This document shows positions 15,890 through 49,293 of a stretch of DNA of 49,350 bases, piece after piece. Both the position numbers and the translations under genes were made by a program. Each line of letters begins with the position of its first letter. The stretch's first letter is position 1. Location: NCBI GenBank assembly GCA_009842645.1, contig VYFB01000155.1, positions 1 through 49,350 of the forward strand. The letters run 5' to 3'. The notes beneath the pieces were generated by a model. The model had not been told where the DNA came from. It saw only the letters and a list, made by a program, of their open reading frames with translations, and did no database searches. This stretch comes from Nitrospira sp. SB0677_bin_15. Its GTDB lineage: Bacteria > Nitrospirota > Nitrospiria > Nitrospirales > UBA8639.

Positions 15890-15972
15890 AGGTCGGATTA
15901 GCCGAACAGGCGTAACCCGACATCGCAGGCCCTCGTCGGATTACGCTCCGCTAATCCGACCTGCGTTTTTTT
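15890..15972 (+). terminator. Hairpin repeat with T tract after the membrane protein gene
   Basis: Perfect 12-bp arms AGGTCGGATTAG (15890-15901) and CTAATCCGACCT (15951-15962) enclose further palindromic sequence, and seven T residues follow at 15966-15972. It belongs to a GTAGGTCGGATTA...TAATCCGAC repeat family, with a relative at 28629-28673. Termination is inferred; the loop is long for a classic intrinsic terminator. Confidence 0.4.
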
Positions 15973-16030
15973 GTAGCGGCCGTATCTTATGCGGCCAAGG
16001 AGAGGCGCCATAAGATGGCGCGGCTACAAT
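15971..16030. repeat. TTGTAGC...GCTACAA palindromic repeat, copy A
   Basis: The segment begins TTGTAGCGGCCG and ends GCGCGGCTACAA, with internal TCTTATGCGGC and GCCATAAGATGG also pairing. A related copy lies at about 41291-41350. It forms part of the 372-bp gap 15822-16193, which contains three repeat types and no gene. Confidence 0.6.
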
Positions 16031-16051
16031 AAGGAGAGGACGTCAAGTTAA

Positions 16052-24508: not shown

Positions 24509-24549
24509 TACTATAAAACAACCTCAATCAGCCCGCCTCTCCTATTCCC

Positions 24550-24598
24550 CTCCTTTGTAAGGACGGGAACTTTTTCCGAAGAGGGAAAAGTTGGGAGG
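24550..24598. repeat. CCTCCTTTGTAAGG...GGGAGG repeat, copy 1
   Basis: About 49 bp containing AACTTTTTCC and GGAAAAGTT inverted arms. A near-identical copy in opposite orientation lies at 25742-25791, so the pair flanks ilvC as inverted repeats about 1.15 kb apart. Confidence 0.7.
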
Positions 24599-24608
24599 TA
24601 GAGTCCGG

Positions 24609-25730
<1,122 letters not shown>

Positions 25731-25741
25731 GAATACCTCCA

Positions 25742-25791
25742 CCTCCCAACTTTTCCCTCTTCGGAAAAAGTTCCCGTCCTTATAAAGGAGG
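25742..25791. repeat. CCTCCTTTGTAAGG...GGGAGG repeat, copy 2 (inverted)
   Basis: Inverted match to 24550-24598 with only a few differences (TATAAAGG for TACAAAGG). It lies in the ilvC-ilvN gap. Confidence 0.7.
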
Positions 25792-25943
25792 GGTAAAGAA
25801 GGGCTGCCAGCCATTGCCTCCCCGTCGCCTGCCCTGAGCTTGTCGAAGGGTAAGGGGAGGTCGGGTGGGGTAGAGTCCTGAGCCCGAAAACCTCGCGCTC
25901 CGCATCGCGTATGAGCGAAGGGAACAACGATCGTTGCTTCCTT

Positions 25944-36910: not shown

Positions 36911-37095
36911 GTAGGGGCGACCGGTCGTTCGCCCCTACCAGACACCCCCTCACCCCAGCCCTCTCCCGCAAGGGGCGAGGGAGTTAACGGTTCTACCTCC
37001 CCTTACCCCTCCTTACAAAGGAGGGGAACGAAAGAACCCTCTCTCCCATTTCCTGCATTAAGCGGGAAATAGGGAGAGGGCTGGGGTGAGGGGGG
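36911..37095. repeat. Repeat cluster between the TerB-like gene and the spermidine synthase-like gene
   Basis: Three units fill the 371-bp gap 36786-37156: GTAGGGGCGA...TCGCCCCTAC (36911-36938), a CCCTCACCCC hairpin (36945-36982), and a second in opposite orientation with a longer stem (37037-37095). A CCTTACCCCTCCTTACAAAGGAGGGG stretch lies between. No gene is seen. Confidence 0.7.
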
Positions 37096-37156
37096 AAATT
37101 GTCAACGAATACGTGAATACATGCAGCGGACACGCAGATCCGCCCCTACGCAATAC

Positions 37157-46373: not shown

Positions 46374-46413
46374 TCCCCCTCACCCCAGCCCTCTCCCTCC
46401 AGGGGCGAGGGAG
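46374..46413. repeat. CCCTCACCCC-type hairpin repeat
   Basis: CCCCTCACCCCAGCCCTCTCCC with GGGGCGAGGGAG lies between the convergent zinc-ribbon and ruvA genes. Confidence 0.7.
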
Positions 46414-46417
46414 GCAG

Positions 46418-47056: not shown

Positions 47057-47809
47057 TCAGCCGGAGGCCGCGACTTTTTCCATCACTTCATCCGGAATGT
47101 CGAAGTTGGCGTGCACTTTTTGGACGTCGTCATGGTCATCCAGGATTTCCATCAATTTCAACATCTGCTCGGCCGGTTTTTCCTCGAGACGGATCTGATT
47201 CTGTGAGAGATAGGTGAGTTCAGCCAATGACGTGTGAACGTCGGCCTCGTACAAAGCCGCCTTGACCGCTTCGAACGTAGCGATCTCCGTGGTGATTTCA
47301 AAGCCGGCACCGGTCTGTTTCACGTCCTCCGCGCCGGCGTCCAGGACGATGTTCAATAGCTGATCTTCATCGAGCGCCGGCCCGTCTGCAAGCAGGAGCC
47401 CTTTCTGGTGGAACTGCCACGCCACGGCCCCGGCTTCGGCCATGGTTCCGTGATTCTTCCCCAGCATGCTGCGAATTTCCGACACCGTACGGTTGCGATT
47501 ATCCGTCATCACCTCAATCAGGATAGCGGTTCCACCGGGCCCGTAGCCTTCGAGCGAGAACTCCTCATAATTGGCGCCCGGTAGCTCCCCCGTACCCCGC
47601 TGGATGGCGCGTTTGATGGTATCGGCCGGCATGTTGGATTCCTTGGCCTTGGCGATACAGGTCCGCAGGGTCGGGTTCGCATCGGGGTCGCCGCCCGCGC
47701 GGGCTGCGACGGTAATTTCGCGGATCAGTTTGGTGAACATTTTTCCGCGTTTGGCATCGACCCCGGCCTTATGGCGTTTGATTGTGGACCAATGACTATG
47801 ACCACCCAT
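47057..47809 (-). CDS. yebC: YebC/PmpR-family protein (transcriptional/translational regulator)
   Basis: 250 aa starting MGGHSHWSTIKRHKAGVDAK, the family signature, with GTGELPGANYEEFSLEGYGP near residue 71. YebC proteins are DNA-binding regulators in some bacteria, and recent work links members to translation of proline-rich stretches. It has a strong promoter (47889-47918) and a GAAGG ribosome site, and heads the yebC-ruvA unit. Confidence 0.95.
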   Translation of the reverse strand: MGGHSHWSTIKRHKAGVDAKRGKMFTKLIREITVAARAGGDPDANPTLRTCIAKAKESNMPADTIKRAIQRGTGELPGANYEEFSLEGYGPGGTAILIEVMTDNRNRTVSEIRSMLGKNHGTMAEAGAVAWQFHQKGLLLADGPALDEDQLLNIVLDAGAEDVKQTGAGFEITTEIATFEAVKAALYEADVHTSLAELTYLSQNQIRLEEKPAEQMLKLMEILDDHDDVQKVHANFDIPDEVMEKVAASG

Positions 47810-47888: not shown

Positions 47889-47918
47889 ATCATAGGATAG
47901 GGCATCCGATGGTGTCAA
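47889..47918 (-). promoter_or_regulatory. yebC-ruvA promoter
   Basis: Perfect TTGACA (47918-47913) and TATGAT (47894-47889) with 18-bp spacing, giving a leader of about 75 nt. Confidence 0.6.
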
Positions 47919-48002
47919 CGAGAGTTATGTAATAAATCTTAAGTATCACCATGCGATTTCTCATAATCTGCTCACGACGGACGGCGAGTTCCATATCATC
48001 CG

Positions 48003-48232
48003 TGTATGTGTTCGGTCATTCGTTGACAAAATAAAGGGCTGGCCTCACCAGAATTGTCATTCTGAGCGTAGCGAAGAATCCCCTTGCTGTCATCCCCGAC
48101 TCCGATCGGGGATCCAGGGTTGTTGTCGTTGCGAAGGGCAGAAAAAGCAAAGACTCTGGATCCTCGATTAAAGATGTCGAGGATGACAGAAGGAGACAGT
48201 GAAATGTGTCAACGAATGACTGAACACATACA
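48003..48232. repeat. Nested palindromic element upstream of fmt
   Basis: Outer inverted arms of 26 bp (48003-48028 and 48207-48232, one mismatch, TGTATGTGTTC.GTCATTCG) enclose an inner inverted pair (48088-48119 and 48154-48188) beginning TGTCATCC and ending GATCCAG. A GTCATTCTGAGCGTAGCGAAG piece lies between. The element is about 230 bp and fills most of the 482-bp gap 47810-48291; no gene is seen there. Confidence 0.75.
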
Positions 48233-48291
48233 ATCCGAATCGCGCCAACAGGGAAGTTGCGTGAAGACAGGGAGGATGGTAAGGAAACACC

Positions 48292-49293
48292 ATGCGCGTC
48301 GTGTTTATGGGAACACCTGCCTTTGCGGTGCCGTCACTCGAAGCCTTGGACAACTCGGACCATGAAGTCGTGGGCGTGGTCACGCAGCCCGACCGCCCCA
48401 AGGGAAGAGGCCAAGCCGTGGTGTCGTGCCCGGTCAAAGAACTGGCGTTGTCCAAGGGATTGCCAGTGTGGCAGCCCGACAAGATCAAGAGCCCGGAATT
48501 CCTGCAACAACTTTCCGAGTGGAAGCCGGACGTCATCGCCGTAACGGCCTTCGGGCGGATTCTGCCCAAGGTGATCCTGGATCTGCCGCCCATGGGATGC
48601 GTCAATGTTCATGCGTCGCTGTTGCCCGCATACCGGGGCGCCGCTCCGATCCAATGGGCGCTCATTCACGGGAATACGGAAACCGGCATCACCACGATGG
48701 TGATGGATGAAGGCATGGATACGGGAGCCGTGTTGCTTCAGCAAACCATCCCGATCGAACCCGAGGATACTGTCTTGGAGTTGGGCAACCGGATGGCGCT
48801 GGCCGGCGGTGCGCTCCTGGTGGAGACGCTGACGCGCTTGGCCGCGCGCACGGTCGTCCCTCGCGCACAGGATCATAGCCGGGCAACGATGGCCCCGTTA
48901 CTGAAAAAAGAAGATGGCGTGATTGATTGGACCCAATCGGCCACGGAAATCGCCAACCGGATCCGGGGCCTCTCGCCGTGGCCCGGGTCCTACACCTTTC
49001 ATCATGCCTGTCCTGAGCAGAACGGAGCGGAGCGAAGTAAGCAGCGTTTGATCATCCGCAAAGGCCGTGTCGATGCACAAGGCGGCTTGGCCGGTGGCAA
49101 GCAACAACCCGGCACCATCCTGGCCGTGGGTCCGAAATCCTTTTGGGTGGAAACGGGTGAGGGTAGGATCGAAGTGCTGGAAGTGCAGCCCGCGAACAAA
49201 AAACGCATGTCCGTGGAACAGTTTCTGCTAGGATATGCCCTTCGAGCGCAGGAAACGCTTAGTCCGCAGTCGAGGACAACGTGGAACCTCTGA
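48292..49293 (+). CDS. fmt: Methionyl-tRNA formyltransferase
   Basis: Formylates initiator Met-tRNA. The N-terminal catalytic domain has FMGTPAFAVPSLEAL near residue 5 and the formyl-folate site HASLLPAYRGAAPIQWALI near residue 106; the C-terminal OB domain binds tRNA. AAGGA lies six bases before the ATG. At 333 aa it is longer than the usual 310-315 because of a 13-codon insert (49006-49044). Its final codons, Asn-Leu-stop, are the first bases of hairpin element copy 3. def is not adjacent in this window. Confidence 0.95.
   Translation: MRVVFMGTPAFAVPSLEALDNSDHEVVGVVTQPDRPKGRGQAVVSCPVKELALSKGLPVWQPDKIKSPEFLQQLSEWKPDVIAVTAFGRILPKVILDLPPMGCVNVHASLLPAYRGAAPIQWALIHGNTETGITTMVMDEGMDTGAVLLQQTIPIEPEDTVLELGNRMALAGGALLVETLTRLAARTVVPRAQDHSRATMAPLLKKEDGVIDWTQSATEIANRIRGLSPWPGSYTFHHACPEQNGAERSKQRLIIRKGRVDAQGGLAGGKQQPGTILAVGPKSFWVETGEGRIEVLEVQPANKKRMSVEQFLLGYALRAQETLSPQSRTTWNL
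49006..49044. repeat. Probable repeat-derived in-frame insert in fmt
   Basis: Thirteen codons ACPEQNGAERSKQ, containing TGTCCTGAGCAGAACGGAGC and GAGCGAAGT, resemble the TCCTGAGCGTAGCGAAGT-type repeats elsewhere in the window. They interrupt the expected PWPGSYTFHH...RLIIRKG join in the C-terminal domain. Confidence 0.5.

Follow-up and report, generated by a model that had tools for sequence, protein, structure and literature searches.

We found that the 230-bp segment at positions 48003-48232 of the window (the whole stretch of 49,350 nucleotides of Nitrospira sp. SB0677_bin_15 analyzed here) is very probably a non-autonomous MITE that carries both ends of an IS481-like insertion sequence (IS) of the same genus. 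This interpretation accounts for some fifty dispersed repeat ends in the same genome and for similar sets in sister species, points to the parent IS, and adds an example of palindromic repeats serving as landing sites for an IS481-like element. The features of the element and its surroundings are as follows.

48003..48232, no strand: whole MITE, 230 bp (arms, flanks and near-full-length relatives)
48003..48028, + strand: left terminal inverted repeat, TGTATGTG-type end (repeat search, genome-wide copies)
48207..48232, - strand: right terminal inverted repeat, TGTATGTG-type end (repeat search, genome-wide copies)
47998..48002, no strand: left copy of the target-site duplication ATCCG (sequence; a single ATCCG at the orthologous place in loci L174 and L167)
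48233..48237, no strand: right copy of the target-site duplication ATCCG (sequence, flank comparison)
48082..48193, no strand: inner palindrome, an independent dispersed repeat (fold; copies with and without ends nearby; matches within the genus)
48292..49293, + strand: presumed fmt, downstream neighbor outside the element (open reading frame, ORF; matches in 13 of the 14 genomes of the genus)
47057..47809, - strand: presumed yebC-like gene, divergent upstream neighbor outside the element (ORF; adjoins fmt in 13 of 13 loci)

The earlier note, made from the letters of the window alone, had described outer 26-bp inverted repeats with one mismatch and an independent inner inverted pair that together form a two-level hairpin of about 230 bp. 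Both levels were recovered by the repeat search and by folding: the outer arms (26 nt) are 96% complementary with a single mismatch, and the inner arms at 48087-48100 and 48176-48189 (14 nt) are 93% complementary. The inner helix predicted by folding is longer than these inner arms, pairing 48082-48126 with 48147-48193 through 41 base pairs. The 230-nt segment folds far better than its shuffled versions, both as RNA (-118.7 kcal/mol vs a shuffled mean of -62.1, z -11.4) and as DNA (z -9.5), and in neither case did any of 200 shuffles reach the value of the segment. Neither of the two ORFs overlapping the element has a Pfam match at E <= 0.01. The element is thus short, bounded by terminal inverted repeats and devoid of a transposase gene, as is characteristic of MITEs.

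Copies of the 26-mer arm were identified at 53 places in the same genome (up to three mismatches) vs none for a backwards-pattern control, so the ends are multicopy, as expected of a MITE; within the window, the arm is present only twice (shuffle mean 0.00). Among the 41 genomes searched, the arm is carried by 12 of the 14 genomes of the genus and by none of the 27 outside it. A scan of GTDB contigs for the exact 26-mer gave 58 stretches, 57 of them titled Nitrospira or Nitrospirales. The remaining stretch, L199, is titled as an Alphaproteobacteria MAG; it is ~78-86% identical over kilobases to loci of the window's genus and is probably mis-binned, and a wide taxonomic spread of the 26-mer was therefore rejected. 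Near-full-length relatives of the window element include L097 of genome G013 (89% over 230 positions) and L002 in the same genome as the window (79% over positions 3-227).

The interiors enclosed by these ends are heterogeneous. Single-linkage grouping of 50 short elements yielded three main classes of 18 (including the window element), 15 and 12 members, plus five singletons, and the three main classes share no detected similarity. A strong hairpin is not a trait of all interiors, the picture being mixed: among 48 elements of up to 400 bp, 25 have a fold z below -3 (median -3.15).

Complete ISs possessing both ends and a transposase coding sequence were identified in five sister genomes, one in each: L090 (G010), L137 (G001), L138 (G012), L140 (G007) and L141 (G006). 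The ends of the window element thus match those of an autonomous element of ~1 kb (1049-1062 bp) with a single frame and ends that start with TGT. In G010, a genome assembled as a single contig, the ends bound a segment of 1049 bp whose transposase is broken by one stop; the part after this stop has matches, some of them distant, in 6 of the 14 genus genomes at E <= 1e-10. L140 and L141 likewise have one stop each within the transposase match, and the frames of L137 (345 aa) and L138 (342 aa) are intact. The transposases of L137 and L138 contain the Pfam domains rve and rve_3, and rve_2 was matched as well. The best NCBIfam model for both is IS481 (197 and 204 bits), followed by IS3 (98 and 96 bits). 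As the IS481 scores are below the curated cut-off of 224, we refer to the parent as IS481-like. Ends of the IS481 family start with TGT; the parent IS shares this property, as well as the length of ~1.05 kb and the presence of one frame, which encodes a transposase whose integrase core matches rve and rve_3. Three features differ from or set it apart from that family, namely the NCBIfam score below the cut-off, the preferred target GTC-ATYCC-CGAC within palindromic repeats, and a TGA stop codon taken from the landing site in four of five complete copies.

A transposase match at E <= 1e-60 was obtained in 4 of 198 genomes sampled from the phylum, all of them from the window's genus. No complete parent IS was found in the assembly of the window's own genome, where a 184-aa transposase query had no matches at E <= 1e-10 and a 345-aa query had a single distant match (40% identity over 106 aa). 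We suggest that the transposase would have been supplied in trans by an IS that is now lost or missing from the assembly, would have bound the 26-bp ends, and would have inserted the element at a TCATCCG sequence ahead of fmt. As for the origin of the short elements, a 644-bp element in G010 (L122:1845-2488) retains ~310 bp of each IS end and may represent an intermediate in MITE formation. The other short elements match the IS only in the ends and a few adjoining bases, so that internal deletion is supported for this one element, and the idea that every MITE arose simply in this way was rejected.

The window element is flanked on both sides by ATCCG (target TATC-ATCCG-AATC). By analyzing 55 paired elements, which come from fetched loci picked by best matches rather than from whole genomes and were paired within 1500 bp by ends with up to six mismatches to a degenerate pattern (the pairing is nested or questionable in a few cases), we found an exact 5-bp flank duplication in 21, compared with 5.4 expected from re-paired flanks. 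None of 20000 permutations reached 21 (the largest count was 15), and exact duplications numbered 0 at lengths 2, 3, 6, 7 and 8 and 1 at length 4. The remaining 34 elements have flanks that differ by one base (15 cases) or by more (19 cases).

Comparison of the 12 sister fmt loci (genome G008 gave no fmt match) revealed no arms at any of them, at up to eight mismatches. The gap between yebC and fmt is 482 bp in the window, 236-248 bp in G003, G004, G005, G006, G010 and G012, 196 bp in G002 and 253 bp in G009, and longer gaps in G001 (400 bp), G011 (417 bp), G007 (662 bp) and G013 (872 bp) hold other sequence. When the window flanks were joined without the element and with one ATCCG, they aligned across the junction in seven of the 12 loci (L167, L168, L169, L172, L174, L175 and L176); the other five do not align at the site. 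The cleanest unfilled site is L174 of G010 (TTTC-ATCCG-GATG). ATCCG is visible at the unfilled site only in L174 and L167, the latter with a 10-base gap to the left. The lack of arms in the sister loci together with the seven unfilled alignments suggests that the insertion is probably recent and, among the genomes compared, confined to the window genome. Thus, the earlier note's suggestion of a MITE with separate ancestry is borne out by the repetition of the ends across the genome, by full-length ISs that share them, by the 5-bp duplication and by unfilled orthologous sites. In L167 (G011) and L170 (G001), the yebC-fmt gaps contain extra sequences of a different kind that resemble each other and lack the 26-bp ends, indicating that this gap took insertions more than once.

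The same comparison bears on the possibility that the hairpin is a cis-regulatory element of fmt, that is, a leader, attenuator or terminator that controls this gene. As the earlier note had pointed out, the hairpin lies just before fmt and may affect its transcription, and the element indeed ends 59 bp ahead of the start codon of the gene that we take to be fmt. This position, the strong predicted fold and a weak promoter-like match directed toward fmt at the right end of the element (48206-48234, + strand, 9/12; two matches found, 0.7 expected) are in line with such a role. However, the 12 sister fmt loci all lack the arms, ~50 copies of the same ends are located elsewhere in the genome, and no terminator-like site was detected on the + strand, with one small site on the - strand. 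We therefore consider fmt control quite unlikely, and the absence of the arms in the sister loci led us to drop it as the main reading. The stretch from about AGGGAAGTTGCG to the fmt start is conserved among the aligned sister loci and intact in the window. The only good promoter-like match (TTGACA-18-TATGAT, 11/12) is located outside the element at 47889-47918 on the - strand, upstream of the presumed yebC-like gene, which it could serve; most of the surrounding sequence is conserved where the sister loci align. We infer that the MITE has no required function at fmt and at most provides a longer, folded leader: if fmt transcription starts on the far side of the element, the leader would carry the hairpin. 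The MITE reading also cautions against taking this hairpin for an fmt regulator.

The inner palindrome has matches in 13 of the 14 genus genomes and in none of 27 others (E <= 1e-5). Among 29 places sampled from fetched stretches of the window's own genome, with ends counted at up to eight mismatches within 300 bp, it lies within that distance of an end in 15 and has no end nearby in 14. The latter places indicate that the inner palindrome is a second, independent dispersed repeat carried between the ends. The earlier note had considered that its reading would fail with unique outer arms and an inner pair occurring alone everywhere; instead, the arms are repeated and about half of the sampled inner palindromes accompany an end.

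The solitary copies of the inner palindrome (14 of 29 sampled places) can also be taken to mean that a REP-associated tyrosine transposase (RAYT) moved the whole segment as a REP/BIME-type repeat, its outer arms being just further palindromic units. Consistent with this, the genome encodes one protein with a Y1 transposase match (G000:C108:18855-19211, 23.5 bits vs a cut-off of 23). However, the outer arms belong to the termini of DDE-transposase elements, which produce 5-bp duplications, and thus are not REP/BIME units, and neither the inner palindrome nor the window element has a match in the 3357 bp around the Y1 gene; a different palindromic repeat flanks the gene. A RAYT for the inner palindrome was therefore not found in this genome, and this scenario appears even less credible than fmt control. 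The Y1 gene, in L242 (G000:C108), sits between inverted copies of that other repeat (L242:1418-1448 and 2007-2038), which recurs inside MITE L093 and may represent the true REP of this genome. Finally, chance or an assembly artefact, for which only the division of the genome into 156 contigs can be cited, has a negligible probability and is refuted by the fold (z -11.4), the 53 ends vs 0 in the control, the whole-length relative in another species (L097) and the unfilled sites elsewhere.

Returning to the MITE, we analyzed where the family lands. The motif GTCATYC occupies positions -8 to -2 outside the end in 26 of the 53 ends of the window's genome, vs 0.0006 per position in the same stretches. 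The targets rebuilt from the 21 exact duplications are mostly GTC-ATYCC, in many cases followed by CGAC. A few do not fit (L065 and L106), and the target of the window element, TATC-ATCCG-AATC, is a looser version. The inner palindrome itself opens with the preferred motif: its left arm holds CTGTCATCCCCGAC, and CTGTC-ATCCC-CGAC is contained in the palindrome. Judging from these flanks, palindromic repeats that include GTC-ATYCC-CGAC are the preferred landing sites of the family.

The landing site also contributes to the transposase gene. In L090, L137, L138 and L141, the transposase frame is open across the whole terminal repeat and takes its TGA from the flank, (G/A)G(G/A)ATGACAG, which corresponds to the preferred target read on the opposite strand. 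L140 has a shorter flank, in which this TGA does not fall into the frame. Since the landing site supplies the stop in four of the five complete ISs, the choice of target completes the transposase gene in these copies, a conclusion drawn from five copies in all. Similar target-made stops occur in other ISs. It can be speculated, with some doubt, that the parent IS481-like element is specialized on the palindromic repeats of its genus (GTC-ATYCC-CGAC), with a frame that has no stop of its own and is stopped by the landing site, and that the MITEs hold this repeat in their interior. If so, the MITEs would bring their own landing pad to new sites, making the nested, modular hairpins self-feeding.

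The segment is, in our reading, a MITE derived from an IS481-like IS and holding an independent palindromic repeat in its interior; MITEs as a kind are already known. Bacterial examples of MITEs include MITEAba12 (PMC6382973) and MITECca01, whose parent is ISCca4 (PMC9769881). As far as the accessible parts of these two papers describe them, the window element is similar to both in being short, multicopy and free of a transposase, with ends shared with an IS, and differs in its parent family and in the three main classes of interiors found here (18, 15 and 12 of 50). Landing in REP palindromes is described for IS1397, ISKpn1, IS621 and ISPsy8, and the families named for such ISs are IS3, IS110, IS4, IS256 and IS5; the word IS481 is absent from the accessible text of this source (PMC1525189). 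Like these four ISs, as that text presents them, our family inserts at a constant position within palindromic repeats that are dispersed in the genome. Unlike them, it is IS481-like, and its target repeat is palindromic with only candidate REP status. The GTDB genus bin75 has been renamed Ca. Nitrosymbion, with members mostly from marine sponges, and the accessible text of that report contains neither 'transpos' nor 'insertion sequence' (PMC11812461). We infer that the window's genus is this one, comprising mostly sponge-associated nitrite oxidizers. No description of the parent IS or of its target preference for this genus was found in the literature searched, which was covered largely at the level of listings.

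Several further observations concern the repeats themselves. Five stretches of the window (15895-16041, 24529-24607, 25725-25878, 36945-37125 and 46374-46416) have short matches to MITE interiors and lack the 26-bp ends; these are possibly what the earlier note called simpler repeats elsewhere. In L112:1247-1526, L006:1382-1653 and L081:892-1526, one end is interrupted after TTCA(G/C)TCATTC by ~20 to 45 bases that open with CCTTCGAC, after which GTTGACA resumes; apparently, another short repeat has been inserted into the terminal repeat. The last of these, a 635-bp element with the same end type, carries a DUF559 gene (ORF 1056-1517, Pfam E 5.3e-32), and thus TGTATGTG-type ends may be able to move a small gene.
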